From the NCBI RefSeq assembly GCF_000153465.1, contig NZ_CH672387.1, positions 1,081,180 to 1,145,179 on the forward strand: a stretch of 64,000 bases of DNA, read 5' to 3'. A program made the translations under genes and the position numbers. Within the stretch, counting starts at the first letter, position 1; the number at the start of each line of letters is the position of its first letter. Below the pieces are notes generated by a model. It was not told the DNA's origin. It made no database searches and saw only the letters and a program-made list of their open reading frames with translations. Source of the stretch: Aurantimonas manganoxydans SI85-9A1. GTDB lineage: Bacteria > Pseudomonadota > Alphaproteobacteria > Rhizobiales > Rhizobiaceae. Below are positions 1 through 18,310 of this stretch, in pieces.

Positions 1-21
1 AATCGCTGCGAGTTGCGCTTC

Positions 22-276
22 TTAGGACACAACCCCTGGAATCGCTGATGCTGCGAAACATCGGATGCTCATAAGGAAGCGTTTACCTTGCCGTCTCATT
101 CCGTTCGGTAGTGCGCGATCACGATAGATGAGGGACTTGCGAACTCCAATCCGTTCTGCATATGTCCCGCCATGACGAACGCGACGCTCATTCTGCTGTC
201 GGCCGCGAAACCCGTGGCCATCACCCGCCGGGGTTAGACGACATCGTCCTCCGGCGCTGACAGCGTTTGCCGCCAT
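22..276 (-). CDS. Possible small helix-turn-helix protein
   Basis: An 84-codon frame. Its C-terminal half (about residues 40-68) reads like the small HTH/excisionase (AlpA-type) fold: a 'YAERIGVRKSLIYRD' helix-turn-helix stretch followed by a 'GKRFL' wing. The first 35 residues look non-native and there is no convincing ribosome binding site before the ATG at 276, so the true start may be internal or the gene may be a remnant. It points away from the TnsA-like gene at 300, so the two would share a divergent promoter. A chance ORF cannot be excluded. Confidence 0.28.
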   Translation of the reverse strand: MAANAVSAGGRCRLTPAGDGHGFRGRQQNERRVRHGGTYAERIGVRKSLIYRDRALPNGMRRQGKRFLMSIRCFAASAIPGVVS

Positions 277-299
277 GGCGCGGCACCGGAGCGACCTCC

Positions 300-947
300 A
301 TGATTTCCGACTTGCCTATCCGCCTTCCGAGAGAGGGCGGCCTCGCCGCGCATTCCGATCCCGTCGATCTTGGCCGGATCCGCCGCAAGGCATTCACACG
401 CCGTTATCTGCCGACGGGCACCGTCCGCTGCGTCGGCCTTCCGCTGTTCCGATCGTCGCTGGCCCGCGACCTTGGGCTGCTCCTCGATCTCGATGATGAG
501 GTCGAAGCCTGGCAGTGCCTGCCGCGTGCCTTCGACTTTGTCGATGGCGACGGCGTGATCCTCCAGCATGTGCCGGATTTCCTCGTTCACTATGCATGCG
601 GATCGGAGGTTCTCCTCGATGCCAGTCTGGATGGGTTGGCGCCGATCGACGCGTCCATCGCGTGGAGTGCCATCTGCGAGAGCGATATCCGGGCGGAGCC
701 CGCCATCTCCAATGCCCGTGAGATGCTCCGGTATGCCCGGAGAATGGTGCCCTTGGGCGATCGCATCCAGCTGGTCGCCCACCTCGAGGACGCGGGATCG
801 GCGACCCTCGTCGAGGCCGCCGCCGGCATGCGCGAATCCGCCGAGCCGATCGGCGCCGTGATCGCCATGGTGCTGCAGCGGGTCATCCGGATCGACTGGC
901 GCGAACAGCGTCTCGGCCCTGACAGCCGCGTGGAGCCGGTCCGATGA
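300..947 (+). CDS. TnsA-like protein with degenerate active site
   Basis: A 215-residue protein. I chose the ATG at 300 because CGGAG lies about 8 bases upstream; an in-frame start at 267 has none. Residues 35-110 follow the TnsA endonuclease N-terminal pattern: 'SSLARDLGLLLDLDDEV', then 'QCLPRAF', then 'VPDFLV', the position of a catalytic aspartate. Where TnsA nucleases have an x-V-K motif this protein has 'EVLLDAS', so the catalytic lysine is gone, and the catalytic glutamate is also doubtful. The C-terminal third resembles the TnsA winged-helix region that contacts TnsC. TnsA normally cuts the 5' ends during Tn7 transposition; here a structural or targeting role is more likely than cleavage. 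The gene overlaps the downstream protease gene by ATGA, so the two are probably made together. The assignment is by motif reading only. Confidence 0.55.
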   Translation: MISDLPIRLPREGGLAAHSDPVDLGRIRRKAFTRRYLPTGTVRCVGLPLFRSSLARDLGLLLDLDDEVEAWQCLPRAFDFVDGDGVILQHVPDFLVHYACGSEVLLDASLDGLAPIDASIAWSAICESDIRAEPAISNAREMLRYARRMVPLGDRIQLVAHLEDAGSATLVEAAAGMRESAEPIGAVIAMVLQRVIRIDWREQRLGPDSRVEPVR

Positions 948-2926
948 GTGCGGGGCGCGGCAAGTTCCGCGGCCTGAAGGAACGGACTTTCGACGGAACG
1001 TCAGGCGACGAACTTACGGCAAAGGAGGCGAAGGAAGCCCAGGCTGAGGTCGATCGGGAGATCGACGACCGCCTCGCCAAGCTGTCGCCGGCGACGCGCC
1101 TGCTCTTCGATCGCATTCGCCCTGCGATCACCGATGCCCTGGTTCGCCGCGTCGAGGGGCGAAAGCCGGCTTTCGTCATCGTGCGCATTGCATCGCCAGA
1201 ATGGCGCCATTGCACCTTCGAGGCCGTCGCGATGGCGCTGGAGGACGCAGTCCGGACCGAGTTCATGCTCTACGGCGTCCGGTACCAGCATGTTCCCGGT
1301 GACGACTTCGGGGATCGCGCCTGGCAACGCAAGAAGCCGGCGGACAAGACGCAGCACGTGCTCTCGATCCTGTCGACCGGCATCACCATCGTCGCGCTGT
1401 CCATCGGCGAGGAGCTGGACGGCGCGGTCTCGGCGATCGCCGATCTGGAAATCGACCTGTCGCGGATCGAGGCGAGCGAACTGGAGGCAGCGGTTCGGCG
1501 CGCCTTTCCCGAATCCACGTGCCCGTGGCCGGAGAACATTGCGGTCTCCAAGATCGAGCCGCGGTGGATCGACCTTGCGGTGGGACGGTCGGCATCGACC
1601 GAAGAAGCATTCCGGATGATCGCCGCGATCCTCGGTCGTCAGGAGCCGGCGTCAGGCGGGGTTACGGCGCCCAGGCTCGAGGATCTGCATGGCTATGGCG
1701 AGGCCGGCCAGTGGGGGCGCCGCCTCGTCGCGGCGCTGAAGGATCATCAGGCCGGTCGGATTCCCTGGACCGACGTCGACGCCGGCGCGCTGCTCGTCGG
1801 CCCGCCGGGCACCGGCAAGACGCTGTTCGCGAGTGCATTGGCCCGGTCGGCGGATGTCGCCTTCTTCCCGACCTCGTATTCGGCCTGGCAGGGAACCGGC
1901 GAGGGGCATCTGGGCGACGTCGTCCGGGCGATCCGGAAGTCCTTCTCGGAAGCGGCGGCCAATACGCCGTGCATCATCTTCGTCGACGAGGTCGACTCGG
2001 TGCCGGCCCGGTCGTCGGGCCATCACCGTGACGACTGGTGGCGGACCATCGTGAACTGCCTCCTGGAATGCCTGGATGGCACGGGTCGGCGCGAAGGCGT
2101 CGTCGTCCTGGCGGCATGCAACGACGACACGGGGCTCGATCCGGCGCTGGTCAGGTCCGGCCGTCTCGACCGTCGGTTCCATATCGGGCTGCCGCGTGAG
2201 GATGATCTTCTGAAGATTCTTCGACACCATCTGCCGATGATCCCTGAGAACGAGATCCAGCCTGCGGCCGTCACGCTTGCGGGATCGACGTCCGGCGCCG
2301 ACGCAGCCCGCATTGCGAGGGATGTCCGGCAGCGGGCGCGGGGCCAGGGGCGCTGCCCGACCGGATCCGATCTCCTGACCGTCGCGCTTCCTGCGGACAA
2401 TCGCCCCGAGGCACTCCGCCGCCGGATCGCCGTCCATGAGGCCGGGCACGCCGTGGCGATCTTCTGCCAGGGCCAGATCCCGAGCAGCCTGTCGATCGTC
2501 GCCTCCGGCGGCGGCGCGGTGATCCTCGAGCGACAGGAGACCGAACTGGTTCTGGGCGACCTGAACGATCAGCTGGCGATCAACCTTGCTGGCCGGGCGG
2601 CAGAGGAGGTCATCCTTGGCTCTGTGTCGGCGGGCGCCGGCGGCACGGCGGATTCCGATCTCGGTCAGTCTACGAAGCTCGTCATGATGATCGAGGGGCG
2701 CCTTGGCCTGGGCAGCCGCATCGGCGTCGTCGACCGCGTCGAGGAAATGGCGATCGAACGGCGGCTCCGTCTGGCCTATGCAGACGCGCTGCTGGCGGCG
2801 ATGCGCAACCGGCGCGCCATCGAGGCGCTGGCCGAACTCGCCCTGGAGCGGCGGGTGCTCGGCAGGACGGCGCTTTCCGAGTTCTGGTCCGCAATTGGAC
2901 CGATTTCCTTAAGCAATCCTCATTGA
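944..2926 (+). CDS. Soluble FtsH-like AAA+ zinc metalloprotease
   Basis: A 660-residue protein in three parts. Residues 1-240 match nothing I recognise. Residues 275-430 are an AAA+ ATPase: Walker A GPPGTGKT at about 286-293, Walker B 'IIFVDEVD', and second region of homology 'RSGRLDRRF'. Residues 485-640 are a peptidase M41 domain with zinc motif HEAGH starting at residue 498 and a downstream 'DSDLGQSTKL' segment matching the third zinc ligand region of FtsH. FtsH is normally membrane-anchored and degrades membrane and regulatory proteins; no transmembrane helix is visible here. The start overlaps the stop of the TnsA-like gene (ATGA). Its place immediately before a Tn7-like tnsABC-tniQ block suggests a link to transposition, for example remodelling transposase complexes as ClpX does for MuA. 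That role is inference; a defence role is also possible. Confidence 0.8.
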   Translation: MSAGRGKFRGLKERTFDGTSGDELTAKEAKEAQAEVDREIDDRLAKLSPATRLLFDRIRPAITDALVRRVEGRKPAFVIVRIASPEWRHCTFEAVAMALEDAVRTEFMLYGVRYQHVPGDDFGDRAWQRKKPADKTQHVLSILSTGITIVALSIGEELDGAVSAIADLEIDLSRIEASELEAAVRRAFPESTCPWPENIAVSKIEPRWIDLAVGRSASTEEAFRMIAAILGRQEPASGGVTAPRLEDLHGYGEAGQWGRRLVAALKDHQAGRIPWTDVDAGALLVGPPGTGKTLFASALARSADVAFFPTSYSAWQGTGEGHLGDVVRAIRKSFSEAAANTPCIIFVDEVDSVPARSSGHHRDDWWRTIVNCLLECLDGTGRREGVVVLAACNDDTGLDPALVRSGRLDRRFHIGLPREDDLLKILRHHLPMIPENEIQPAAVTLAGSTSGADAARIARDVRQRARGQGRCPTGSDLLTVALPADNRPEALRRRIAVHEAGHAVAIFCQGQIPSSLSIVASGGGAVILERQETELVLGDLNDQLAINLAGRAAEEVILGSVSAGAGGTADSDLGQSTKLVMMIEGRLGLGSRIGVVDRVEEMAIERRLRLAYADALLAAMRNRRAIEALAELALERRVLGRTALSEFWSAIGPISLSNPH

Positions 2927-3376
2927 GTTTGTGGAATCCTAATTTCCCCCTGCCGCCATGGCCGGGGAGGGCGCTCCGATCTGCGGAGCCCCCGCATCGG
3001 AGCAGAGACCTTATGATCGCCAATCGTCCCAAAGGCATAGCCATACCGATACCACGGCCTGTCCGTGTGCCGGCGGCGTTTGCCCGGGCGATCCTCGCTC
3101 CGGTCATCTGACGCAACCAGCGCACTTCGGACATCGTCGTCGCAGTCGCACCCGGATGCTGACCAGCATCTGGCCCCGCAATCTATTGTCCTGGAGTCCC
3201 AGCACATGACCAAAGTGAAAGCCTGCCCGCGAAAACGGGACTGAATGGCTTAGCGCGCCATCCGGCGCGTCTCGACCTGACAGCCCTGTAGGTTTTCCAA
3301 GCCTTCGGCACGCGCCATGCGCGTCCGGGGAACGGGAGAACCTTGTCTTTACCGAGATATTTCAGGGGTCTTTCAG
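2927..3376 (+). other. Non-coding stretch with hairpins upstream of tnsA
   Basis: About 450 bases without a convincing gene. A terminator-like hairpin follows the protease gene (2970-2991). Further on are two short hairpins: CCCG/CGGG around an AAAA-containing loop at 3226-3239, and CGCGCC/GGCGCG with a 4-base loop at 3254-3269. A 32-codon ATG frame at 3013 is not supported by a ribosome binding site. In Tn7 the transposon right end and its TnsB sites lie upstream of tnsA, so an element end could be here, but I could not find the repeated sites that would prove it. Confidence 0.4.
2970..2991 (+). terminator. Terminator-like hairpin after the FtsH-like gene
   Basis: GCTCCG and CGGAGC form a 6-bp stem around ATCTG (2973-2989), partly extended by flanking G/C bases, about 45 bases after the protease stop. 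No U-tract follows, so intrinsic termination is only tentative. Confidence 0.35.
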
Positions 3377-3529
3377 ATGTTCAACTCTATCAAGTTCGCC
3401 GAACGGGAGAAGTCGTTCGGTACTGCTTCGCTGCTGCAGAAGGCAGCAAGCATCGACGCCGGTAAGAAGGCTGTCGCGACCGAAGGACGGAGGGGATCTA
3501 AACCGGGGCATCTCGCCGCCGGAATCTAG
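3377..3529 (+). CDS. Possible 50-residue protein upstream of tnsA
   Basis: A 50-codon ATG frame ending 14 bases before tnsA. The product is basic and Lys/Ala-rich ('KKAVATEGRRGSK') and has no family I recognise. An AGGGG lies about 10 bases before the ATG. It could be a small accessory or leader peptide of the transposition operon, or chance. Confidence 0.3.
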   Translation: MFNSIKFAEREKSFGTASLLQKAASIDAGKKAVATEGRRGSKPGHLAAGI

Positions 3530-3543
3530 AAGTTGTCCGCAGC

Positions 3544-4176
3544 ATGGGCCGCATGACTGCGATTTCGTCGGACCGTGCCGTGACGGGAACGGTCCACGTG
3601 ATGGGAGGTGTCGTGACGCATATCGAGAGCGCCATGGAGATGTACGGTTTGGCGACGGCGCTGGCCCGGGCGGATGCCCGGCGTGTCGCTGTCCAGTTGG
3701 GTCCGTATTTCTACGTTCGGGAAGCCAAGCGTCGGCGGCATTTTTTCGATGCCGGCGTCTGGCTTGCCGACGGGACGCTGCATCTCTTCGCGGTGAAGCC
3801 GAAGCGGTCGTCCCGCTACGCCGAGCTTGTGGAGATCCTGAAGCGCCTCGCCCAGGACGATCCCAGGCTGGCGGATGCGTATCTCCACGTCGTCACCGAG
3901 GATCACATCGCTCCCTGGCAGGTCCAGCGGGCGGGGATCATCAATCTGGCCCTCGACTGGCCCGATGACGAAGCCGACGAGATCGCAATGGACTGCATCG
4001 CGAACGCCGACGGTCCGATCCAGATCGCCGACGTCGATCTCGACACGGGGCTTGGTCATCGCTGCCTTTCGGCAGTGGCCCGGCTCATCGCCCACGGCGT
4101 GGTGGCGATCCCCCATGGGGTTCGGCTCGACACCGACGCCTTCGTCCATGCCGTCGATAGGGAGCCGGTCCATTGA
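3544..4176 (+). CDS. tnsA: TnsA-like endonuclease subunit
   Basis: A 210-residue protein and the first gene of a four-gene overlapping block with tnsB, tnsC and tniQ. The catalytic pattern of TnsA nucleases can be read: glutamate in 'HIESAMEMY' (about residues 26-34), aspartate in 'FFDAGVW' (about 68), and lysine in 'LFAVKPK' (about 85). The C-terminal 70 residues resemble the TnsA winged-helix domain. TnsA partners TnsB and nicks the 5' strand at each transposon end, giving cut-and-paste movement. Starts at 3544, 3601 and a GTG at 3613 (preceded by GGGAGG) are all possible. The 3' end overlaps tnsB. Unlike the TnsA-like protein at 300, this one keeps all three catalytic residues. The sequence is divergent, so the family call rests on motif spacing and context. 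Confidence 0.65.
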   Translation: MGRMTAISSDRAVTGTVHVMGGVVTHIESAMEMYGLATALARADARRVAVQLGPYFYVREAKRRRHFFDAGVWLADGTLHLFAVKPKRSSRYAELVEILKRLAQDDPRLADAYLHVVTEDHIAPWQVQRAGIINLALDWPDDEADEIAMDCIANADGPIQIADVDLDTGLGHRCLSAVARLIAHGVVAIPHGVRLDTDAFVHAVDREPVH

Positions 4177-6440
4177 CCGTCCAGCAGAAGGTGACCGGGT
4201 CGTTCCGGGAAGTGCAGCGGTACCGGCTTGGCGTCGACGATCGCATCATGATCGACGGCGTCCAGCACAAGTGGGTCGAGACGAACGAGATGGCGTACAT
4301 CCTGAAGGATGTCGCCAACGGCGCAACCAGGGAGGTCTCGCTCGAGGAATTCGAGCGAGACCTCCACCTCGAAAAGATCGAGGTGGATCGCGGCTACTTC
4401 TCGCTCGAATCCATCAGGCGCCGGGCTCGGGGCGCCACCAGGTTGACGGATCTGGACCCGCAGTCCGTTGCGATCGTGATGCATCGCCTGCGCTGGGTCG
4501 AGACCTTCAACGATCTTTACAAGCAGGGACTGGTGAAGAAGTCGCCCCCGCGGCTGGCCGAAGCCGTGGCTCTGATCGCCAAGCTGTTCGTGGACGACGA
4601 TCGACCGGAGCTGGAGCCCGGCCAGCGGGCGAAGCGGGGAGGTGGCCCGAGGTCGGGGTTCGCCGATCCGTCGCCGTCGCAGCTCGGTCGCTGGGTTTTC
4701 AATTATGCAAAGCAGAGAGATCCGATGGTACTGAATCCGAACTACGACAGAAGCGGCAATCGCAGGATGCGCCTGGAGCCTGTCGTCCAGCGCCTCGTTG
4801 ACCGGATGGCGGCCCGCTATTGTCGCCCGACCCAGCCGAGCGTCCCGCATCTTTACCAGAGGCTTGTGGGCATTCTGACCCGCTCGAACGAGCGGCGGGG
4901 CACGCACTACACCATTCCGTCGAAGCGGACGCTGGAGCGGGCGATCGCCGATCTCGACGAGCATGACAAGATGGCCGGCCGCCGCGGCATAGCCTGGGCA
5001 CGTCGGAACTATTCCCCTGCCTTCGAGGGCCCGATGGCGACCCGCCCGCTGGAGCGGGTGGAGATGGACGAATGGAAGGTCGATCTGATGACCCTCTGCG
5101 TCGATGCGGGACTCTGGGCCCGGATGAATGACGAGCAGCGGGCGACGGTGGCCAAGGCGCGCTGCTGGATGACTGCGGCGATCGACTGCGCCACCCGGTG
5201 CATCCTCTCCATCTATCTGACGACGGAATCTCCCTCGGCGCGCAGCGCCCTGGAGGGTCTGCGCTGGATCGTCACGGACAAGGACAGTCTCCGCAAGGCT
5301 GCTGGCGCAAAGACCATCTGGGCGGCCCATGGCAAGCCGGAGAACCTGTTCACCGACAAGGGCGCTGGCTTCAAGTCGCACGAATTCCAGGCCGCAGCCC
5401 ATTCGCTGGGGATCGGTACGTTGAAGCCGAATGCCGGGAAGGCGCAGTTCCGCGGCAAGATCGAACGGCTGTTCCGGTCGCTCGACATGGGGCTGGTGTC
5501 CCGGTTCGAAGGGCGGACGTTCTCGAACTCCAAGGAGAAGGGTGACTACGAAGCGGAGAAGACCGCTTCGATCACCTGCGAGGAGCTGAACCGGGCGCTG
5601 ATCCGCTATGTCTGCGACATCTATCACGTATCGGCGCATGCCGGTCTTGGTGGGCGCTCGCCCGCCACGGAGTGGAACCGCCTCACGAGGGTCCACGGCG
5701 CCGAGATCTGCCCACCGAAGCATCAGATGCGCGAGATCTTTGGTGTTCAGTTTGAGCGGGTCGTCGGCAAGAAGGGCGTCCGGCTTTTCGGAACGTTCTA
5801 CCAGTGCCAGGATCTCACCGAGATCTGGCTGCGCAAGCGCGGCACCGAAGTACGGGTGCGGGTCGACGATCGCGACGTGACCGAGATCTCGGTGGAGGTC
5901 GCGCCGGGCATCTGGCGGACGGCGACGGCCGTCGAGACGAGCGTCGGCGCCGTGTCGATCGAGCGGCTGGCGACGAGCTTCGCTGACCTTGTGGCTGCCG
6001 GTCTTCCGGCATTCGATGTCGACGATCCGATCGAAATCCGGAACCGGATCCAGGAAGCGCTGGACGACATCAACAGTCTCGTCCGGCACTCGGCGGCCCG
6101 TGCCGGCCTTGTCGACGAGAAGACGCTCGAGGCGCAGATCGCCAGCCTGCGTCGGGATGCGACCAGCGCGACGACGGCGTGGCTCGACCGGCGGAATTCG
6201 CCTGGCATCGATATCTACAGCGAACAGGTGGCAGGGCCCCGCTCCGCAAAGTCGCAAGGCGGAAAGCCCCGCAGCGCAAAGCCGCCGGTCGAGCCTGATG
6301 CCGCCGCCGATGGCAAGGCTGCCGTTCCCGGGAGCGATGTGCCGCCCCTGTCTCCGTCTGTCGACGAGATGCTCGAACGCCGGGACAACCGGACCGACAC
6401 CGCCGACGATTCCGACAACGAAGAATTCTGGGTCGAGTGA
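4173..6440 (+). CDS. tnsB: TnsB/TniA-type DDE transposase
   Basis: A 755-residue member of the Mu/Tn7/Tn5053 transposase family, which binds the element ends and joins the 3' ends to target DNA. The integrase core lies at about residues 290-440: first aspartate in 'VEMDEWKVD' (about 298), second in 'LFTDKGAGF' (about 393), glutamate in 'GKIERLFRS' (about 430). N-terminal helix-turn-helix segments for end binding are at about 60-250, and the C-terminal region (after about 500) has the beta-barrel and TnsC-contact tail expected of the family. The start is a TTG inside the tnsA stop, and the stop shares TGATG with tnsC, so translation is coupled. Length is normal and no frameshift is seen, so the gene looks functional. 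Confidence 0.9.
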   Translation: MTVQQKVTGSFREVQRYRLGVDDRIMIDGVQHKWVETNEMAYILKDVANGATREVSLEEFERDLHLEKIEVDRGYFSLESIRRRARGATRLTDLDPQSVAIVMHRLRWVETFNDLYKQGLVKKSPPRLAEAVALIAKLFVDDDRPELEPGQRAKRGGGPRSGFADPSPSQLGRWVFNYAKQRDPMVLNPNYDRSGNRRMRLEPVVQRLVDRMAARYCRPTQPSVPHLYQRLVGILTRSNERRGTHYTIPSKRTLERAIADLDEHDKMAGRRGIAWARRNYSPAFEGPMATRPLERVEMDEWKVDLMTLCVDAGLWARMNDEQRATVAKARCWMTAAIDCATRCILSIYLTTESPSARSALEGLRWIVTDKDSLRKAAGAKTIWAAHGKPENLFTDKGAGFKSHEFQAAAHSLGIGTLKPNAGKAQFRGKIERLFRSLDMGLVSRFEGRTFSNSKEKGDYEAEKTASITCEELNRALIRYVCDIYHVSAHAGLGGRSPATEWNRLTRVHGAEICPPKHQMREIFGVQFERVVGKKGVRLFGTFYQCQDLTEIWLRKRGTEVRVRVDDRDVTEISVEVAPGIWRTATAVETSVGAVSIERLATSFADLVAAGLPAFDVDDPIEIRNRIQEALDDINSLVRHSAARAGLVDEKTLEAQIASLRRDATSATTAWLDRRNSPGIDIYSEQVAGPRSAKSQGGKPRSAKPPVEPDAAADGKAAVPGSDVPPLSPSVDEMLERRDNRTDTADDSDNEEFWVE

Positions 6441-7555
6441 TGCCAAGGTGGAATCTGGAAGTATCACCCGACCGGAACGAGGAAGATGACGACGCCGTCG
6501 CGGCGGCGCTCGGTCAGGCACTCGAAACGCTGAACGTCCTTCCGCCGGACTACAGCCGACGGCTCAATGCCGCGACCAGCGTCTACCTCGCGCACGAAAA
6601 GCGCGACAATCCGTTCCTGACCGAGTTCTCCAAGCGGATCAGTGCGGCGCGTGATCAGGTGATGGGCAAGAGCAGGCAGCCTTTCGAGTACCTGAGCCTG
6701 TTGGGCAGCTCGGGCTCGGGGAAGTCGAGAATGATCCGGCATTGCCTGGACCGGTCGGGGCTGGCCGAACCGATCGAGCTAACGGGGAGAACCCTGCGGC
6801 CGGTCATCCGGATCAATGGGCCGCGCCCCTTCACCCCCGGTCAGCTCGCCATCTCCATTCTCAAGGAGGTGGCGATGCAGACCGACACCCAGCTAACTGC
6901 CAACAACGCATGGCAGATCGTGCGAAACCATCTGCCGCGCTCGAAGACTGCGCTCGTCATCGTTGACGAGGCCCAGCATGCGCTTCGGCACAAGGCACCG
7001 GCATCCACGATCGAAGTCCGCGACGCCATCAAGATCCTTGCGGAGGACGCCCACTGGCCGGTCGGCTTCATATTCGTCGGCATCCCGGTGTTCGAACGCT
7101 TTCTCATGACGGACAACCAGGCGAAGGGGCGCAACGTCATCGTCCGGATGCCGAACCTGAATCCCAACCGGAAGCAGGACCAGGCGTTTGTGCGGATGCT
7201 GCTGACGCAGATGGTGAGAGCAGCCGAGCTGTCCATCGACGACGGCGGCGACGATGAGTTCTGTCGTCGCCTGATCTGCGCCGGTGGCAAGCAGTTCGGT
7301 CGCTGCCAGAAGCTGATCCGCATGGCGATCGAGGAGACACTGATGGCGCGGCGACCCACTGTCGGGGTCGAGGATTTCGCGGAATCCCTTCGCAAGCGAA
7401 CCGGGTGCGATGACGATCACAACTCATTCCTTGCCACTCGGTACGAAATGATACCGCACTGGCTGAACGACCCCGAACTCGAGACCTACGTCGCCGCGAA
7501 CGACATTCTGGTCAATGACGACCAGGCCGGGGCGCGGGAAAGGGGGCGTAAGTGA
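6440..7555 (+). CDS. tnsC: TnsC/TniB-type AAA+ transposition regulator
   Basis: A 371-residue AAA+ ATPase that links the target selector (TniQ) to the transposase. Walker A is 'GSSGSGKS' near residue 90 and Walker B 'ALVIVDEAQH' near residue 172, as in TniB/TnsC. The ATG at 6440 overlaps the tnsB stop (TGATG); a GTG immediately before it is an alternative. The stop overlaps the tniQ GTG start. Length and domain content match the family. TnsC polymers carry target immunity and recruit TnsB/TnsA to the site chosen by TniQ. Confidence 0.88.
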   Translation: MPRWNLEVSPDRNEEDDDAVAAALGQALETLNVLPPDYSRRLNAATSVYLAHEKRDNPFLTEFSKRISAARDQVMGKSRQPFEYLSLLGSSGSGKSRMIRHCLDRSGLAEPIELTGRTLRPVIRINGPRPFTPGQLAISILKEVAMQTDTQLTANNAWQIVRNHLPRSKTALVIVDEAQHALRHKAPASTIEVRDAIKILAEDAHWPVGFIFVGIPVFERFLMTDNQAKGRNVIVRMPNLNPNRKQDQAFVRMLLTQMVRAAELSIDDGGDDEFCRRLICAGGKQFGRCQKLIRMAIEETLMARRPTVGVEDFAESLRKRTGCDDDHNSFLATRYEMIPHWLNDPELETYVAANDILVNDDQAGARERGRK

Positions 7556-9444
7556 GGCCGTGGTCGCTCAGGCCGGCGTTCCACCCGCTGGAGACGCCTG
7601 GTGGGTATGCGTCTCGCTTTGCCAGCGCGAACGGGCTGCCCACCATTCATTCCCTTGCCGGGTTCCTCGAGACACGGGCGTCGTTCATTTCCAGCGACCG
7701 GGATGGCGCACTCGAGCTTTTGGCCCGCGTGTCGGAGAGCCGTGCGGCGGATCTGAAGAAGAATGCCAGCAGGGCCATCGATCGGGCGAAGGAGGGCGCT
7801 TCGACGATCCGCGGCGAGGTTGTGTCGCGGCATCTGGTCCGGCGATCCTGGTGGGCCGGCTGCGCGGCGTGCATCGAGGAGGACCTGAAGAATGGCCCCG
7901 ACTGGCTGGAGCCGGTGGAACGGGCCTGGGAGAGGGTGACATGGCGGCTCCGGCCGATCACGGCCTGCGATCGTCATGGCCTTCGGCTTGTCGAGGCTCC
8001 GTATCCGAAGGGCGTCGCCTATAACGACTTCACCCGCGGGCTCGAGAAGCTTCTGGATCACGTTCTGGGAAGCGAGCGCATTCTGGCGCCGTTCTCGGAA
8101 CGCCAGCACTATCTTTCCGGTCGACTAACCGGCGCGGAGCATGCGCCCAACGACCTTCTCGATGACCTCGAATGGCATGCGGCGGCCAGGCTGGCGACGC
8201 TGGTCGGATATTCGGCGCTCTATCCCGGCCAGGTCCGCAGGAACGGTATTCTCGAGGCCGATATCGACAACACGATCGACGACCACGGCTTCGATATCCT
8301 CAAGGGTGGCCGGGCCGGATTCAGGACCTGGGTCGAAGAGATGATCGAAGATGCCCGTGTCAGTCGGGATCGCCGCTTCGGCCTTCAGTCCATCCTGGGG
8401 ATGCTTGGAGAGAGTCTGGACCGGACCGACGATTCGTTCTGGGAGCCGGTGAAGGACGAGATCTGCGCGGTGGCCTTCGCGAAGCTGCCGATGTCGACCA
8501 CCGGCCATTTCTTGCAGCGTCACCCGCCGAAGCGGATGGTCCATTCGATCGTCAGCGCCGCCCATGAGTACGACATTTCGGTAAAGAGCATGCGCCACTA
8601 CCTTCGCCGGGCGAACGTCATTGGCCCGGAGACGGACGGTCTCATGCCCGACAAGGTGACGTTTCCGGCAAAGGCTCTGCCGACACGAGCGCGGCTTCTG
8701 ACGGAGAGACTACGGCCGGGCAGGGGCGGCAGCCCAGGGAGAACACTGACGGTGACCGAGACCGCGGCAATCCTCGGCATCGGGGCAAATTACCTGACAG
8801 GCTGCGATTTCTTGCTGGCGGAGCGCCAGAACGGCCTGTGGCGCCAGTTCGACCGGAAGAAGGTGCTGGCGATGCGGGACGTCATGCTGGCCGGCGCTGT
8901 GTCGGTCGATGCCGCCGGTCCGGACGAATGCCGCATCGAAGAGATCGCCCGGCGCTGCCATGTCACGTTCGCGGCCCTCGTCGGATATCACGATGCCGGC
9001 AGGATCGCTTGGAAGGGCCGTCTGGTCGGATCGCAGTCCCTGGACGGTCTCCTGTTCCGGAAGGCCGAGATCGACCAGCTTCAGTCCGCCATGGAGGAGG
9101 GCGAGATCGCGCTGCGGATTGCGGCCGCACGCGTCGGATACGGCAAGGCGGTTCTCTGTCGGCTGGCCCAGGACGGCCACTTGCCAGCACGGCAGGTCAC
9201 CAATGGTCGGGGAGGACGGCTCGGCTGGGTCGCTCGCCAGGCCGACGTCGAGGCGTTGATGAGCCGGATCATGCGCTTTAGCGAGGTCGCCGAGGCGCTG
9301 TCGATGAAGAAGCATCAGGCGAAGAAGGCTCTGAAGCAGGCCGGCATCGAGCCGATCTTCGAGGATGCCAAGATCCGGACCATCCTGTTCTGGAGGCCTG
9401 AGATCGGCGAGTATGTCACCGGGCAATATCAACCGGATCGGTAA
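7552..9444 (+). CDS. tniQ: TniQ/TnsD-type target-selection protein
   Basis: A 630-residue protein with an N-terminal TniQ domain (about residues 1-160): it opens with a 'PHPLETPGGYASRFA'-type motif and has a zinc-finger region including 'CAACIEED' and 'ITACDRHGLRL'. The long C-terminal part (160-630) contains helix-turn-helix-like segments, such as 'RIEEIARRCHVTFAAL' near 465, and is TnsD-like in size, which suggests sequence-specific targeting of a chromosomal site. GTG start overlapping the tnsC stop. Pieces of a related tniQ lie decayed at 19,176-19,356, so elements of this family entered this locus more than once. Confidence 0.8.
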   Translation: MRPWSLRPAFHPLETPGGYASRFASANGLPTIHSLAGFLETRASFISSDRDGALELLARVSESRAADLKKNASRAIDRAKEGASTIRGEVVSRHLVRRSWWAGCAACIEEDLKNGPDWLEPVERAWERVTWRLRPITACDRHGLRLVEAPYPKGVAYNDFTRGLEKLLDHVLGSERILAPFSERQHYLSGRLTGAEHAPNDLLDDLEWHAAARLATLVGYSALYPGQVRRNGILEADIDNTIDDHGFDILKGGRAGFRTWVEEMIEDARVSRDRRFGLQSILGMLGESLDRTDDSFWEPVKDEICAVAFAKLPMSTTGHFLQRHPPKRMVHSIVSAAHEYDISVKSMRHYLRRANVIGPETDGLMPDKVTFPAKALPTRARLLTERLRPGRGGSPGRTLTVTETAAILGIGANYLTGCDFLLAERQNGLWRQFDRKKVLAMRDVMLAGAVSVDAAGPDECRIEEIARRCHVTFAALVGYHDAGRIAWKGRLVGSQSLDGLLFRKAEIDQLQSAMEEGEIALRIAAARVGYGKAVLCRLAQDGHLPARQVTNGRGGRLGWVARQADVEALMSRIMRFSEVAEALSMKKHQAKKALKQAGIEPIFEDAKIRTILFWRPEIGEYVTGQYQPDR

Positions 9445-9522
9445 TAGCAGAGGCCGAATCCGTTCTTATCAAAGAGATTGCTCATGACAAAGGGAAACCC
9501 AATTCCCCGATGACAGTACCGC

Positions 9523-9876
9523 TCACTCACATATTTCAGGATTTGCCCTACGGTGAAGAAGTACCATAACAGCGACGCGGCTCCTCTCAAGCTCACTGAA
9601 TTTATCTGCAAGCGTAAATCCCTCAGGTACTCCTCGATCTTTCTCTGCATAATACCATTGAGCGCTAAGCTTCTCTGACTTACAGCGTCCCTCTGCCGCC
9701 AGTGCGGTATCAAGAAGCCCGAAGCAATCTCCGGAGAACTCTACCGCTGCTTCCTCCATGCAGATGCCGTATATCTGTGGAGCTTTAAGCTCATCTGCGA
9801 TGGAGGAACCGCTCCACATTACAAAATTTGAAGCCGTGATTCCAAGAGCAATGATTATTTTGTGTTCTCGTCTCAC
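9523..9876 (-). CDS. Small secreted hypothetical protein
   Basis: A 117-residue protein from a GTG start with a short basic N-terminus ('MRREHK') and a hydrophobic stretch at about 7-25 that looks like a signal peptide. The mature part has five cysteines and ends 'ANPEICE'. I recognise no family. Base composition is clearly more AT-rich than the transposon genes just upstream, so this is a recent or separately acquired gene. It is convergent with tniQ. Confidence 0.5.
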   Translation of the reverse strand: MRREHKIIIALGITASNFVMWSGSSIADELKAPQIYGICMEEAAVEFSGDCFGLLDTALAAEGRCKSEKLSAQWYYAEKDRGVPEGFTLADKFSELERSRVAVMVLLHRRANPEICE

Positions 9877-10196
9877 AGTGCGATCCAGTCCAATCCGGGC
9901 AATACATGAGCCGATGTTGAACAGCTCTGATCGTCACGATATCAAAAAATATGATTCGCAAGCGACTTGCCGTAAACTGCAGGCTGGACGCATACGCTAC
10001 GCCTTCGACAGGCTGAAATGCCCTCGCGTGAGCGCAGTCCCAGGGTAGGATTTCTGCTCCGGAAGGTCGAGGTCAACCACATCCAGTTTCCTTAGTAAGG
10101 AGACCGCACGGTCAACCTCGGCCAAACGGGTCAACATAAGAAGCCGTTTCTAAGAAACGGCGATGCCGCAACCTTTTAAGACTGCAGCGACGCGTA
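9877..10196. other. Non-coding, AT-richer stretch
   Basis: 320 bases without a gene between two minus-strand genes. It holds the palindrome at 10,143-10,161 and, around 10,070-10,130, a pair of related inverted stretches built on GAGGTCAACC / GGTCAACCTC. The segment near 10,010-10,050 recalls the region beside IS605-type tnpB genes, and a TnpB-like C-terminal fragment lies nearby at 10,935, but I cannot prove that origin. Confidence 0.4.
10143..10161. repeat. 19-bp palindrome
   Basis: GCCGTTTCT and AGAAACGGC form 9-base arms around a single base. It lies 36 bases past the stop of the 218-residue gene (10,197) and could be that operon's terminator stem, without a clear U-tract, or an operator. 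Confidence 0.45.
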
Positions 10197-10853
10197 TCAG
10201 TCGTAGTAGCCAGACATATCGACTTCGCCCCCCAACTCAATTTCAGGCGCTGAAAACCCGAATCTCCCAGCAACGCAATCTAGATTCACGACAGCCTCAA
10301 ACTTAATCGATGTCCCTGTAAACGGCTTGTCTGGATCGTTTTCACCATCGAGAGTTCCGTTGATGATAAGCTGAACGCCGTCCTCGGACTTTCGGATCTC
10401 AACATCGTTGACGTCGATCCCCTCGAAGTACGCATTCGTGGTGGCCATCTCCCCAGCAAGCCCGTCCAAGATCTGTGAGCCATATTCTGGGATAATGTGA
10501 CTTTCGACGAGGTCGATTAGGTCGCTCTCGTCCCAGACCTTCCCGGTAAAATGCCCCTCAGAAACGAGGTGTTCGCAGAGACTGCGAACAATCCGTTCTA
10601 CATGCGGTGCGACAGCCGCCAAGCTTGGAATCTGGCTGATCCTCAATGCGATCATGGCATAGTCGGGAATGATGACATCAGCCTCTGGGAGGTTGACGAG
10701 CGCACACTTCTTTTCGGCACGCAGGCCGGCAGCCGTCGAATGGCCGCAAAACGCCGCGACGAACTCATGCGCATGTCCTGCGCTGAGCGGCCCAATTCCA
10801 GATGACGTGCAGAAAGCGCGGAGATGATCCACGCAGCTCTTGTGGATGTTCAT
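10197..10853 (-). CDS. Unknown 218-residue protein at the end of the defence-like operon
   Basis: The start is the ATG at 10,853 because AAAGAGAT lies upstream; an earlier in-frame start lacks one. The N-terminal half (about 1-110) is alpha-helical. The C-terminal half (about 120-215) alternates beta-type stretches and acidic turns ('GTLDGENDPDKPF'), resembling the beta-rich domain of some predicted pPIWI-associated nucleases, but I see no catalytic motif and assign no function. It lies 200 bases downstream of the membrane protein on the same strand, so it may be the last member of that operon or an independent gene. Confidence 0.6.
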   Translation of the reverse strand: MNIHKSCVDHLRAFCTSSGIGPLSAGHAHEFVAAFCGHSTAAGLRAEKKCALVNLPEADVIIPDYAMIALRISQIPSLAAVAPHVERIVRSLCEHLVSEGHFTGKVWDESDLIDLVESHIIPEYGSQILDGLAGEMATTNAYFEGIDVNDVEIRKSEDGVQLIINGTLDGENDPDKPFTGTSIKFEAVVNLDCVAGRFGFSAPEIELGGEVDMSGYYD

Positions 10854-10934
10854 GGCGATCTCTTTTCGCCGGCGTCGATATGGCAATCACAAGCGTTTCA
10901 CGATCACCATGCGCCGGCTGAAAGAGAGCCGTAG

Positions 10935-11057
10935 AATGTGAACATCGGGTATGTGCCGTCTTCAGGGTCGCTTGCAGCCCAGGCGCTCGGCTCCTGTACC
11001 CATATCCGCATTTCGGAGCGCGATCGTCAAGGCGCCATCAACATCCGTGACGACTAA
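10935..11057 (+). pseudogene. Possible decayed TnpB C-terminal fragment
   Basis: Reading the plus strand in the frame that ends at TAA 11,055-11,057 gives '...CTHIRISERDRQGAINIRDD', like the end of IS200/IS605 TnpB nucleases, where a zinc ribbon cysteine is followed by a RuvC-III 'DRDxNAAxNI' motif. There is a stop upstream at 10,932 and only one of the four cysteines remains, so this is at best a relic. It is short and the resemblance could be chance. Confidence 0.25.
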
Positions 11058-11371
11058 TCCGGGAAACGGATCGACATGATGACCAGCAACGCCGCCAGCA
11101 TCACCAACCCCACCAAGCCAGCGAGTGCGCAGATCGCGAAAATGGAGGCGAACTTCTCGGCGACTATTTCGAACACTGACAGACCGTGACCACTTGGCTG
11201 CATAACGGTGGATCCGACCATTCCGACCGGCAGCAGAATCCCCGCCATAAAGCAGGCGTAAGGCGTCGACCAGACGACGACCCGTTCGATTAAGCTGATC
11301 TCGTCCCCAGCCTCGTCGAGCACTCTGTAGCGGTAAGGCAGGTTCGATATGAAATTTATGATGCCGAGCAT
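11054..11371 (-). CDS. Small two-helix membrane protein
   Basis: A 105-residue protein with GGAGA before the ATG. Hydrophobic segments at about residues 33-55 and 70-100 should both span the membrane; the N-terminus carries a short 'NLPYRYRVLDEAGDEISL' segment. It follows the MBL-fold gene by 22 bases on the same strand and is probably in the defence-like operon. A small membrane protein beside a phospholipase effector could help membrane attack or regulation, but that is inference. Confidence 0.6.
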   Translation of the reverse strand: MLGIINFISNLPYRYRVLDEAGDEISLIERVVVWSTPYACFMAGILLPVGMVGSTVMQPSGHGLSVFEIVAEKFASIFAICALAGLVGLVMLAALLVIMSIRFPD

Positions 11372-11393
11372 TCGTGTCTCCCTTTGTGAATTG

Positions 11394-12305
11394 CTAGCCA
11401 GATCTCGCCGTCAGGAATCGCCGCAGATCGACATCGATCACACCCGGTAGCCGGCGGAATTGGGCCGACTTGGTCGTGAGGCTGTAGCTTCCGTCTTCGT
11501 CAGCTATGATTCGCATGCTCCCGTCACGACGGGTGGTGAAAACATGACGGCGATCAGGCGGCAGCCCGAAGGGCTGAAGAGCTTGAATCCCAGGAACTCT
11601 GGAGCGGTACCAATCATCCGCGCTCTCCTGAGTGCCGTGTTGGATTGCCGAGTCCGAGAAAACGACCGCGTCGGGCGCCATGATCCTCATCGCCTCGTCG
11701 CTCTGCCCGTTCTCTCGACCATGATGCGAGGCGATCAGGATGCTCGAGTTGCTCAGTTCCGCTGCGATGTCCGGATTTGCCAGAAGGTTCCTCCAGCCGG
11801 CGGTTTCGAGGTCGCCCCCAAAAACGATGCGGAATCGGCCGTGGGTGAAGATATTCAACAAGCTGAGATTGTTCGTGCTGGTGGGGAAAACGGCAGGATT
11901 GTTCCAGCCGACATACCAGCGGAGGAAAATAGGCCAGCTACGATAGAGATCGCGATGGGTCCATGTGCCTGGTTGCAGGTGCACAAGCATCTGATTGAAA
12001 GCCGTGATCCCGCGGCCCATCCCACCGTTTCTGAACTTGATGGCTTGAAGCGTGCGAGAATCCACCGATGGATTCGCGATGATCAGTCCGGGCTCGACAA
12101 CGCTAGCCATGTTGTCGAAGTCGGCAACATGGTCTTCATCGAGATTGCTGATTGCGAGTGCGCCGATGGAATTCCATGGGTAATGGTCCGACGGTGACCA
12201 TCTTTCGTTCCTCCCGCAATCAATCATGACCCGGTAGCCGTCGGCGCAGGTGATGACAGCGCATGCGCCATGGCCGACATCGTGGATATCGATTTGAATT
12301 GTCAT
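11394..12305 (-). CDS. MBL-fold (ComEC/Rec2-like) hydrolase of the E1-E2-JAB operon
   Basis: A 303-residue metallo-beta-lactamase-fold protein. The metal motif appears as 'SNLDEDHVADFDNM' (about residues 53-66), followed by 'FGGDLET' and 'ASHHGREN' (about 165 and 190), the order seen in ComEC-like MBL proteins. 'LDEDH' stands where HxHxDH is usual, which is common in this subgroup. The ATG at 12,305 shares TGATG with the patatin stop. The protein ends in a basic tail '...RRFLTARSG'; ending in Gly like the other MBL-fold protein of this operon, it is a candidate for conjugation by the E1/E2 enzyme. Its substrate is unknown; nucleic acid or cyclic nucleotide are both possible. Confidence 0.8.
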   Translation of the reverse strand: MTIQIDIHDVGHGACAVITCADGYRVMIDCGRNERWSPSDHYPWNSIGALAISNLDEDHVADFDNMASVVEPGLIIANPSVDSRTLQAIKFRNGGMGRGITAFNQMLVHLQPGTWTHRDLYRSWPIFLRWYVGWNNPAVFPTSTNNLSLLNIFTHGRFRIVFGGDLETAGWRNLLANPDIAAELSNSSILIASHHGRENGQSDEAMRIMAPDAVVFSDSAIQHGTQESADDWYRSRVPGIQALQPFGLPPDRRHVFTTRRDGSMRIIADEDGSYSLTTKSAQFRRLPGVIDVDLRRFLTARSG

Positions 12306-13480
12306 CAAGTCTCCCCGCCGTTTTGCCCAGGCCGCCGCACTGCTCTCGATTTCAGGTATGGGTTTGTCGAATGGGTGCCTATTGTCAGATGCACCGCCTC
12401 GGACCCATGGCGCGCTATGCGATCGAAGTCGTCAGTCTCGATCTGCGTCAGCGTCGTGGGATAGGTGAGGCACAAGTCGCAGGCAGCGTCGGTGAGGTAG
12501 TCATCCGTCTCGGGCGATCTGAGGCCGAATTTGCGCGCCGGGACGCCGATCCGGAGTAGATAGCCCTCGATTTCGTTGCTTTCGATGGACTTCATCAGCA
12601 CGCGAGAGCGCAGCGCACGGATCTGGTCGCTCGCAATGTCAAAGAGGCGGGGCGAGGCCAACCGTCCCGCGAGCAGCGACTTGGCAACCGTTTCCGGCTC
12701 ACCGAGAGGCCCGGACGCGTCACTGCAGATCAAAGCATCACAGTTTTGCAGTCCTTCGACGGGCTTATAGAGGGCTTCGAGAGCCATGTTTTCGTAGGCG
12801 CCGCCGTCCCATAAATGGACTTTTCGATATCTTGGCTTGACCTTCTGGATGGGCTCTTTCGTCGCCGGATCCGTCTGCCACCATCCCTGCGGGGAAATCG
12901 TCAGTGGCATTGCGCCAATCACGTACGGCACGGCCGCAGAAGCGGCGATAGCGTCGGCGACCGTCACATCCGGGGAATAACGACGACCAAACTGCCAGTC
13001 GCCCATCGCTTCCTGGCTGAACCGCCAGTTCTTGCCCGTCTCGATACAGGTCGTATTGATGTGCCAGAGAGGCGACTTCGGCAGATCTGAGATCTTCATC
13101 CGAATCCGCCAGCGTTGGTGGAGCAGGCGCGAGAGAATCCCAGCTCTTCCGGAAACGAGGTGGACATTCTCGCGCAGAACACCTCTGACACCCAAAGCCT
13201 TGAGGCTGAACAGGTCTGTCGTCGTCAGCATCTCCCTGATCGAAGGATAGACCTTACCCAGGAAATCGGCGGATGAGGGCCATCGCCCGCCCGCATGCGC
13301 GAAAATCGCGCCGCTCACGAGACTCCCTCCAGACACCGTCGATATCTGAGTCACGTCTTCCAGGAGATCGCCTTCGGCTAGCTGCCGAAGAACCCCGAGA
13401 TGGAAGACGGCGGCACGGATACCACCGCCTGAAAGGGCAAGACCGATCCTCGGTGAGACGCTCCTCGTCGCATCATCCAT
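12305..13480 (-). CDS. Patatin-like phospholipase effector (CapV-like)
   Basis: A 391-residue patatin-fold lipase. The oxyanion motif 'SGGGIRAAVFHLG' is near residue 18, the nucleophile serine is in 'STVSGGSLVSG' (about 55) and the catalytic aspartate in 'LWDGGAYEN' (about 222). The start at 13,480 overlaps the end of the E2-E1-JAB gene by 8 bases (ATGGATGA); the longer frame from 13,522 would overlap much more and has no ribosome binding site. Patatin effectors such as CapV degrade membrane phospholipids to kill infected cells in CBASS immunity. Here it sits with ubiquitin-like conjugation enzymes as in type II CBASS, but no cGAS-like cyclase is in the operon, so the activating signal is unknown. 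Confidence 0.9.
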   Translation of the reverse strand: MDDATRSVSPRIGLALSGGGIRAAVFHLGVLRQLAEGDLLEDVTQISTVSGGSLVSGAIFAHAGGRWPSSADFLGKVYPSIREMLTTTDLFSLKALGVRGVLRENVHLVSGRAGILSRLLHQRWRIRMKISDLPKSPLWHINTTCIETGKNWRFSQEAMGDWQFGRRYSPDVTVADAIAASAAVPYVIGAMPLTISPQGWWQTDPATKEPIQKVKPRYRKVHLWDGGAYENMALEALYKPVEGLQNCDALICSDASGPLGEPETVAKSLLAGRLASPRLFDIASDQIRALRSRVLMKSIESNEIEGYLLRIGVPARKFGLRSPETDDYLTDAACDLCLTYPTTLTQIETDDFDRIARHGSEAVHLTIGTHSTNPYLKSRAVRRPGQNGGET

Positions 13481-15713
13481 GATGAGCTTCTCGAATGAGG
13501 AAGCCGATATCAGTCTCGCCAATAATCAGGGAGACGGCAGGCAGGCCGTCGATCTCCAGAGCGACCGACAAATCCTCGATCTGCTTCATGTCCACCGAAC
13601 TCGGCGCTGCCGAGTGCCCGGCCGGGTGCGAGTGCCACTCGCCGATGTATCGGACCTGACCCCCGGAGCGAGTCTGGGCGTCGTCAATCCGCCGACGAAG
13701 ACCTCGCTTCCCTCGCTCGAAACTGGTCGGCGTTCCCACGCTGTCTTTCGGCGCTGGTAGCGCATGTACGACCGAAATGATGCGCGCCTCGTAATCGATC
13801 ATGCCCATCAGCGAACCGCCGGTCTCGTTCGGCAATGCGATCTTCCGTTCTCCGACGAGTTCATCGAGCAGGGAGTGAACGAACAAGACGGTCCAGTCTG
13901 CGGCTTCTGCGCGAACGGTCGCGACAGGAACTGGGAGGCAGTCGATCGCGCCGTCGTCCCGCATCGTCCAGATTTTCAAAGCGGGGTCTTCGGCGGTCGA
14001 GGCTTCCGGCACAGACCCTGCGATCAAGCCACTCAGCACGGCGACGGAGGATGTCGGAATACGATTGGTCAGGGCACGGCATGCGCCGGTAAAGCGCATC
14101 TGCTGTCCGGACTGGTGGTGGTCGTGCAGACTCGGATTGGTCAGCACTTCCCGCAGATACACGGCCTCGACATCCCTGAGTGTCACCTTCCTGTCCGCAG
14201 ATTCACACATCAGAACTGCCGATCGTCCCGCCGGCGTGAAGAAGGTACTGAGAACCCGCGGCGTGCTAGGGCGGTCCACGAGCCAGCGCGAAACCGTCAC
14301 GGAGGCGGAGGCGTCAACGATCAGGTCCGCACTGTCCAGCGCCCCGGCCGCCTTTCCGTCAGGTCCGCCCCGAAGAACGTTCTCGTGGATTGGGATGAGA
14401 TCGGCATCGCCACGGATCGAATGAAGACGGCTGGCAAGTCGGCTGACTTTGGAGCGGCCGAGATCGTCAGCAATCAGGGTGTGCCTGCTGACGTTGTGCG
14501 GGAGAAAGAAATCGTCGTCGATGATCGTCCACTGGAACTGTCCCTCGCGGACAAGCATCTCGGCGAGGCTGGAGCCAAGCGATCCGGCTCCGATCATGGC
14601 GACGCGGCGGGTAACCGTCACCTCTCGCCCCGACATGATCGTGGCTCTCGCCGCATTCAGCTGAAGGTGAACGGGAGCCACCGAGACTCCGATCGTCTCC
14701 AGTCCCGCCGCCTGCGGTTTCGCCGTGAAGAGACGCACATACTGCACTTCGCCCGCTTGATCGCTGTCATTGGCCGCCAGAATTCCAAGCGCCTGGCCAA
14801 TTTCACCACCACTGCTGCCACACAAGAAGGCCGAGAGGTTTGTGCTGCCAACCTCCCCCGTACGGGGGTGGATCTGGGGCATATGCAGAAGAATACAGAA
14901 GCTCCAGGCCTTGTCCCTGTCTTCTCGAGCAAGGGCCAACCAATCCTCCACGGCCGACTGGAGTGCGGGCAGGAGGTCCAGATCTCGTTCTTTGAGCATT
15001 TCGACGAGCCGGCGCAGGTTCTGCGGCGCTCGTCTGATCCTCGACATCTTGTCGGGCCTGACCTCGGCATAGACAACCTGCAGGCCGGCCGTAGACACCG
15101 ATGCGTCGCGTTCCCGATCGAATGGCACCACGATCAGATATTTGCGGCTGTCATCGGTCGTCCAGACATCCAGTCGTCCCCCGTCAGCCATTGCTTGCTC
15201 GGCCTGCGATGTCACGATCACTTCGTGAGCGCTGTCATAGAGAAACACCGGATCGTAAGGCTGATCGGTGCCGTGCAGTTCTCCCTGACAAGCCTTGTCG
15301 AACCAGATGACAATACGTCCCATGAGTTCTGATGGGGTGTAATTGGCCCGGGCATCCTGCCACGGACGATCATCGATGCAGAGCGCGCTCGGCTCGCCTT
15401 CAGGCATCAGGTTCTGATGGGGCGTGTCGGGGAAATCCTCCCGGGCAACGAAGACCCATGGCGCGCCCTCGTTGTCAGGGAAAAAGGCGACCGATATCGT
15501 CTCGGTTGGAAGGATCGGGTAAACGGGACGCTGCGGGACGCCGATCTTCAAATCGAGAGAGACAATCTCGCGACCTGACTTCGCATAGCGCCGACATTCC
15601 CGCAGCTGAGCGAAGTCGGCGCAACTTTCCTCGACGTACTTTGCGAACGCGATCGCCAATGGTGCCTTAAGCGACGTGCGGTCGACCTCTTCACTGCTCT
15701 TTGGGCGCCACAT
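13473..15713 (-). CDS. E2-E1-JAB fusion (Cap2/Cap3-like conjugation enzyme)
   Basis: A 746-residue three-domain protein. Residues 60-170 are an E2-like (UBC) domain with the likely active cysteine in 'SALCIDDRPW' (about 112). Residues 365-560 are an E1 ThiF-type adenylation domain with 'MIGAGSLGSSLAEML' (about 370) and 'IDDDFFLPHNVSRH'; the E1 thiolating cysteine may be the one in 'FTGACRALTN'. Residues 600-740 are a JAB/JAMM metalloprotease: 'ETGGSLMG' supplies the glutamate and 'EWHSHPAGHSAAPSSVD' the HxHx(n)SxxD zinc site. Cap2 (E1-E2) and Cap3 (JAB) in CBASS conjugate and release the cyclase C-terminus; here all three activities are in one chain. It starts 2 bases after the upstream MBL stop and overlaps the patatin gene. 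No ubiquitin-like protein gene is visible nearby. Confidence 0.9.
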   Translation of the reverse strand: MWRPKSSEEVDRTSLKAPLAIAFAKYVEESCADFAQLRECRRYAKSGREIVSLDLKIGVPQRPVYPILPTETISVAFFPDNEGAPWVFVAREDFPDTPHQNLMPEGEPSALCIDDRPWQDARANYTPSELMGRIVIWFDKACQGELHGTDQPYDPVFLYDSAHEVIVTSQAEQAMADGGRLDVWTTDDSRKYLIVVPFDRERDASVSTAGLQVVYAEVRPDKMSRIRRAPQNLRRLVEMLKERDLDLLPALQSAVEDWLALAREDRDKAWSFCILLHMPQIHPRTGEVGSTNLSAFLCGSSGGEIGQALGILAANDSDQAGEVQYVRLFTAKPQAAGLETIGVSVAPVHLQLNAARATIMSGREVTVTRRVAMIGAGSLGSSLAEMLVREGQFQWTIIDDDFFLPHNVSRHTLIADDLGRSKVSRLASRLHSIRGDADLIPIHENVLRGGPDGKAAGALDSADLIVDASASVTVSRWLVDRPSTPRVLSTFFTPAGRSAVLMCESADRKVTLRDVEAVYLREVLTNPSLHDHHQSGQQMRFTGACRALTNRIPTSSVAVLSGLIAGSVPEASTAEDPALKIWTMRDDGAIDCLPVPVATVRAEAADWTVLFVHSLLDELVGERKIALPNETGGSLMGMIDYEARIISVVHALPAPKDSVGTPTSFERGKRGLRRRIDDAQTRSGGQVRYIGEWHSHPAGHSAAPSSVDMKQIEDLSVALEIDGLPAVSLIIGETDIGFLIREAHHG

Positions 15714-15715
15714 AT

Positions 15716-16846: not shown

Positions 16847-16941
16847 CGATCTCTTCCCTGCATCTCGTCGTGACTGGTTTTCCGGTGCTCTTGAATGAGG
16901 TGCCCTCAGAACGATCAGAGTCGGTTAACCATAAAATAAAA

Positions 16942-17011
16942 TTCGGCGTACCGAACGTGATATGGGCTATCAACTATCGCTATGCAACCCCATAATTTCC
17001 GATATACCGAA
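16942..17011. promoter_or_regulatory. Divergent promoter region with two palindromic operator-like sites
   Basis: Between the MBL gene (minus) and the XRE gene (plus), TTCGGCGTACCGAA at 16,942-16,955 is a perfect 5-base-arm palindrome, and TTCCGATATACCGAA at 16,997-17,011 is a related imperfect copy, 55 bases apart. Both share TACCGAAC. The DNA here is AT-rich. The spacing and place suit binding of the neighbouring XRE repressor to control both directions. Confidence 0.55.
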
Positions 17012-17054
17012 CTTAATGCAATGGACGGTCAATGTCCGATTCTGGAGGTGTGCG

Positions 17055-17375
17055 ATGCCGGAAGCTCTGAACGAACGTGTTCGGCGGTTACGGAAGGCGA
17101 AGAAGATGACCTTGGAAGCGCTGGCGGAAGCGAGTGGGTCGAGCCGGAGCTATATCTGGGAAATCGAGAATCGCCCGGAGACGAAGCCATCGGCCGAGAA
17201 GCTGGCGCGGATAGCGGAAGCGCTGGACACGACTGTCGAGTTCCTGATGGCGGTGGACGAATCGTCGGTCTCGGAGGAAGATGCCACTGATCGTGCTTTC
17301 TTCAGGAAGTACCGGTCACTGGACAACGACGCGAAGTCCAAAATCAGGAAGATGATCGACCTCTGGGACGACTGA
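17055..17375 (+). CDS. XRE-family transcriptional regulator
   Basis: A 106-residue protein. I use the ATG at 17,055, which has GGAGG 9 bases upstream; the frame is open further up but without a start signal. Residues 5-65 are a Cro/CI-type helix-turn-helix ('KMTLEALAEASGSSRSYIWEIEN'-like, with 'KPSAEKLARIAEALDTT'). The short C-terminal tail is charged. With the ImmA/IrrE-type protease gene 9 bases downstream it forms a regulator/antirepressor pair like ImmR-ImmA, in which damage or infection leads to cleavage of the repressor. It likely represses the divergent defence-like operon and itself. Confidence 0.85.
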   Translation: MPEALNERVRRLRKAKKMTLEALAEASGSSRSYIWEIENRPETKPSAEKLARIAEALDTTVEFLMAVDESSVSEEDATDRAFFRKYRSLDNDAKSKIRKMIDLWDD

Positions 17376-17384
17376 CGAGATGCC

Positions 17385-18248: not shown

Positions 18249-18310
18249 TCGCACGCTCTCAACCGGATCTCCAGCATGTCGGCTAATCGCACGCTACATA
18301 CCGTATGCAA

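Follow-up and report, generated by a model that had tools for sequence, protein, structure and literature searches.

The gene for a soluble AAA+/M41 metalloprotease in Aurantimonas manganoxydans SI85-9A1 belongs to a Tn7-like transposon. This conclusion is well supported: the ends of the element and a CCACT duplication enclose the gene, and many divergent Tn7-like elements likewise contain a homologue paired with the same upstream gene (gene A), as the preliminary description of this DNA had proposed for the protease. Gene A is homologous to TnsA, but its nuclease active site is no longer intact. The combination suggests that the element may supply the machinery by which its transposition proteins are dismantled or controlled. 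Coordinates refer to the window, the whole 64,000-nucleotide stretch that was analysed; negative values lie to its left.

Boundaries and gene content of the element

The Tn7-like element comprises 37,960 bp, from -18411 to 19548. The features in or bordering it within the window are as follows.

267 to 947, plus strand: gene A, predicted pseudo-TnsA, a TnsA homologue without the catalytic Glu and Lys
944 to 2926, plus strand: soluble AAA+/M41 metalloprotease with an FtsH-like core, its own N-terminal domain and no membrane helix
3377 to 3529, plus strand: mini-ORF of 50 aa (MFNSIKF...TEGRRGSK), before tnsA
3544 to 4176, plus strand: tnsA, catalytic E/D/K present
4173 to 6440, plus strand: tnsB, DDE transposase, Mu-transpos_C (Pfam)
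6437 to 7555, plus strand: tnsC, TniB-type AAA+ regulator, TniB (Pfam)
7552 to 9444, plus strand: tniQ, target selector, TniQ (Pfam)
11394 to 15713, minus strand: defence-like cargo inside the element (PDC-M48B-like protein, patatin, E2-E1-JAB fusion)
19446 to 19548, no strand: right end with three TnsB-site-like repeats, terminus ...GCAAACTATGTGTCGCGCTACA
19549 to 19553, no strand: target-site duplication CCACT, a perfect 5 bp, with its other copy at -18416 to -18412 beside tRNA-Glu

The left terminus, TGTCTCGCGACACATAGTTTGC, is at -18411, outside the window in flanking stretch L004, and the right terminus, read inward as TGTAGCGCGACACATAGTTTGC, ends at 19548. The terminal 22-bp ends are identical at 20 of 22 bases and have the inverted TGT...ACA form with repeated TnsB-type sites; the right end, with its three repeats of the terminal motif, is conserved in genome G020. 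The element is inserted directly at the 3' end of tRNA-Glu, and related elements lie beside tRNA-Glu in genome G336 and beside tRNA-Arg in genome G022. Because the ends and the duplication enclose the module, the protease is inside the element. The module that had been outlined at 944 to 9444 is real, but that span was too short.

From 267 to 9444 all genes are on the plus strand: gene A, the protease gene, a 617-bp gap that contains the mini-ORF, and then tnsA, tnsB, tnsC, and tniQ in a single operon in which each gene overlaps the next. The placement of the protease directly before these four genes, made from the open reading frames, was borne out by the domain matches for tnsB, tnsC, and tniQ; tnsA has no Pfam match but aligns with TnsA proteins. 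The mini-ORF might encode a small adaptor or a leader peptide. Short ORFs that are related to it and have a GRRGH/SH motif were seen in three related elements. Positions 1 to 20000 gave no match to a known RNA in Rfam.

Between the left end and gene A, the same transposon carries as cargo a complete BREX type I set (BrxA, B, C, L, PglX, and PglZ) at L004:6675-19681 (window about -13.3 to -0.3 kb). A BREX copy with 78 to 80% identity occupies the equivalent place in the G022 element.

A second, larger unit encloses the Tn7-like element. This is a tyrosine-integrase island with 49-bp direct att repeats of the 3' part of tRNA-Glu at -18460 and 36125 and an integrase at 34643 to 35974 (integrase and repeats: window 34643-36173 and L004:1512-1588), and its empty site is present in A. 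coralicida (G202). Movement of the island solely by the tyrosine integrase was rejected: the att repeats and integrase are real, but the Tn7-like ends lie within them and tRNA-Glu is shared. An identical 410-aa IS256-type transposase is encoded at window 28323-29555 and at L006:4115-5347 of the same genome. A. coralicida has an island of about 26 kb at tRNA-Met (G202:C1:336290-362454), a site that is unoccupied here (window 46223-46299).

Gene A and its protease partner

The protease ORF encodes 660 aa with Pfam matches to AAA (7e-28) and Peptidase_M41 (3e-12). In a set of 13 homologues, H498, E499, H502, D572, K292, D348, and E349 are invariant, so that the HEAGH motif, the Walker A/B motifs, and the third zinc ligand are all retained. 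No membrane helix was found in the protein; its best 19-residue hydropathy is 1.49 versus 2.53 for the genome's own FtsH. Domain matches, motif residues, and hydropathy thus agree with the initial reading of a zinc M41 peptidase fused to an AAA+ ATPase without a membrane helix. The best solved-structure matches are FtsH structures (2ce7, E 4e-24).

Gene A and the protease gene are coupled by an ATGA overlap. When gene A was compared with 42 TnsA sequences by hhalign, 183 columns were aligned with a probability of 96 and an E value of 2.4e-9. The predicted structure had the TnsABCD transpososome as its top Foldseek match (E 1.1e-3, probability 1.00), a result for which only the middle part and the top fold match of the model are used because the model is poor overall (mean pLDDT 58). 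The NCBIfam TnsA-like model matched at E 3.6e-7, under its curated cut-off; a search with Pfam TnsA gave no match at E ≤ 0.01, and a sequence profile searched against PDB chains gave no significant match.

The position of the catalytic Glu is Ala or Val in 31 of 31 gene A proteins and Glu in none, and Lys is found at the catalytic Lys position in at most 2 of the 31, with the catalytic Asp retained in all. In true TnsA proteins the catalytic Glu is present in 40 of 40 where aligned. Gene A is thus a TnsA homologue without its nuclease active site. The earlier description of a TnsA-like gene coupled to the protease holds with respect to homology and overlap, but it had missed this loss. The tnsA gene of the element keeps E/D/K, so the element carries one working-looking TnsA and one dead-looking TnsA. 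The lost active site is the best clue to mechanism.

Linkage to transposition genes across Rhizobiaceae

A first contig scan with a single protein as query gave no match. A profile of two M41-AAA proteins was then used on 395 genomes of the family (E < 1e-70), and TnsB was searched in the same sample. Both searches scored two candidates per genome, so the counts are lower bounds. At least 137 M41-AAA matches were found, at least 34 of them within 30 kb of a TnsB match versus about 1 expected by chance, in agreement with the suggested co-occurrence of the protease family with tnsB neighbours. Among the matches scored, 37 of the 38 that lie no more than 60 kb from tnsB are on its 5' side, in both orientations. 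With gene A as query there were 70 matches, 33 within 45 kb of TnsB versus 1.3 expected, and in nearly all tns-linked loci the gene immediately upstream of the protease is gene A.

Two layouts were seen. In the first, gene A and the protease gene stand just before tnsA (the window element, G020, G022, and G336). The order gene A, M41, tnsA, tnsB, tnsC, tniQ is kept in three other elements, with protein identities of 61 to 70% in the nearest and mostly 28 to 68% in the others. In the second layout, the cargo separates the pair from the tns genes, and the two are transcribed divergently. The pair was seen on four plasmid replicons (R. acidisoli, R. leguminosarum, S. meliloti, and Rhizobium sp. 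11515TR, the last with only tnsA and tnsB within the stretch read), and on all of them it is divergent from tns genes located on its 5' side. When ends were sought automatically in 16 other elements, only G249 was convincing; it was chosen manually among the candidates listed, on the grounds that its end repeats match one another. In G249 no gene separates the protease from the transposon end, and the duplication ACCGG is present on both sides.

A protease gene or remnant was present within 45 kb in 40 of the 61 TnsB places among those listed, a count that includes a broken gene in G210; about 10 further places of the 61 are on contigs cut short. A handful of elements had no protease across 20 to 40 kb of 5' sequence, and the pair in G166 had no tns gene within about 38 kb. 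After the module and the tns genes, the gene found most often encodes a cytosine methyltransferase-like protein of 620 to 800 aa (e.g., G140:C65, about 26100-28520).

Mantel comparisons of up to 22 elements gave r values of 0.71 to 0.86 between tns proteins, 0.69 between M41 and gene A, and 0.33 to 0.42 between the module and tns proteins (all p ≤ 0.002). The module-tns correlation is well below that among tns proteins, so the module is sometimes exchanged between elements. It is a recurrent accessory part, at times exchanged or absent, rather than an invariant or obligate core.

The preliminary description had allowed that homologues of the protease might mostly lie away from transposition genes. 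This is true only of a separate branch, outside transposons, with different partners. For example, a second M41-AAA protein in this genome (45% identity, G000:C1:2657265) has no tns genes nearby, and its upstream partner is a different protein from gene A. The partner in this non-transposon branch is not detectably TnsA-like, and among the matches listed none of 12 loci with it had a TnsB match within 60 kb. In every protease branch a metallophosphoesterase can be present as a third gene. It is often encoded directly downstream of AAA-M41 (L006, L040, L041, L044, L172, and L173), both in and out of transposons. The non-transposon relatives have either an unrelated partner or a metallophosphoesterase, and the enzyme is therefore not dedicated to transposition. 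In a quick M41 tree, in which some branches are open, transposon linkage holds for almost all of the deepest branches, and loci with other partners are nested inside.

Possible roles of the pair

It is quite possible, and we propose tentatively, that the pair is a conserved accessory module of a Tn7-like family in which the dead TnsA serves as an adaptor that feeds the AAA+/M41 protease. Gene A would still bind the partners of TnsA (TnsB, TnsC, or the end complex) and would present them to the AAA+ ring, which would unfold them for degradation by the M41 domain. The best candidate mechanism would be disassembly of transposition complexes by the pseudo-TnsA adaptor and the unfoldase; the same contacts might alternatively be used to hold TnsB or TnsC levels low. 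Dismantling of the MuA transposase complex by ClpX is a precedent, and ClpX-like dismantling of TnsB or TnsC would fit what is known of MuA and CAST TnsB. In human cells, integration by wild-type CAST is 4-fold higher with ClpX, which has been proposed to disassemble the CAST post-transposition complex (PMC12326709), but an E. coli host-factor screen did not recover ClpX, and redundant proteases were suggested (PMC12757027). With more reserve, we suggest that the transposon family might encode its own transpososome remodeller, the dead TnsA paralogue as adaptor and the soluble FtsH-like unfoldase-protease together replacing the host ClpX step.

The main rival to the disassembly model is that the pair is anti-phage or anti-plasmid cargo, employed in defence or inter-element conflict, in which the TnsA fold would sense DNA by binding it and the protease would act as the effector. 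The element does carry BREX and other defence genes, and the R. acidisoli pair adjoins a CHAT gene, an S8 peptidase and ATPase pair, and a Kiwa-like gene. The other partners of the non-transposon relatives and the moderate module-tns co-divergence would also be consistent with cargo. However, the partner gene is itself a descendant of TnsA. Moreover, in a set of 25 elements, which was chosen for M41 and is therefore biased in the pair's own count, gene families other than tns, the pair, and the methyltransferase-like gene (11 of 25) recur in no more than 5. The pair was not found in 384 other alphaproteobacterial genomes sampled, in contrast to defence systems that are widely shared; a gene A search of 385 genomes of the class found, outside the family, only ordinary TnsA genes just upstream of tnsB. 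A role as defence cargo is rather unlikely.

Another possibility is that the pair acts ahead of strand transfer rather than on complexes afterwards: its degradation of TnsC or TnsB would then restrain transposition or impose target immunity. The contacts would be identical to those of the disassembly model, and no observation here separates the two. M41 is slightly better correlated with TnsC (Mantel r 0.40) than with TnsB (0.35) or TniQ (0.33), differences whose significance was not computed. We regard such negative regulation as improbable.

It is hardly conceivable that the protease is an unlinked chromosomal neighbour or the transposon's insertion target, the outcome foreseen had a transposon end lain between 2927 and 3543: the gap before tnsA and a jump in identity there in G336 resembled an end at first, but the gap has no end motif, homology with G020 is continuous through it, and the actual ends with their duplication are at -18411 and 19548, which refutes either relationship for this element.

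Within the literature covered (full texts, with few subscription papers and with supplements excluded), no module of Tn7-like or TnsB genes with an FtsH, M41, or AAA+ protease has been described, and no FtsH or M41 protein appears in the main text of two surveys of Tn7 cargo and target selectors (PMC8649781, PMC10293859). Host ClpX reportedly limits CAST integration in human cells. With a pseudo-TnsA and an AAA+ protease encoded by the element, the disassembly of Tn7-type complexes after insertion can be tested directly, using genes that move together with the transposase. If the model is true, a nuclease subunit has been recycled as an adaptor, and the pair might serve genome insertion tools as a co-factor.

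The element shares with Tn7-like transposons the gene set, TGT...ACA ends, TnsB-like site repeats, 5-bp duplication, and tRNA-adjacent insertion, and differs from those described in its additional gene A-M41 module. Gene A is homologous to the TnsA endonuclease over about 180 columns, covering both domains, but lacks the catalytic Glu in all cases and the Lys nearly always. The protease has the AAA-then-M41 domain order of FtsH and other M41 AAA+ proteases, but it has no membrane helix and a different N-terminal domain, and its 165 bits against the FtsH family model fall far below the family-level cut-off of 600 bits. Its AAA module resembles that of IetAS and other AAA+/protease defence pairs (IetA E 9e-19); however, the IetAS subtilisin is a separate protein, whereas here M41 is fused to the AAA domain and the partner is TnsA-like. 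As with ClpX on MuA or CAST TnsB, the proposed target of the AAA+ unfoldase is a complex of a DDE transposase. ClpX, in contrast, is supplied by the host and its protease is a separate protein, whereas the unfoldase-protease described here is fused, encoded by the element, and accompanied by a partner derived from TnsA.
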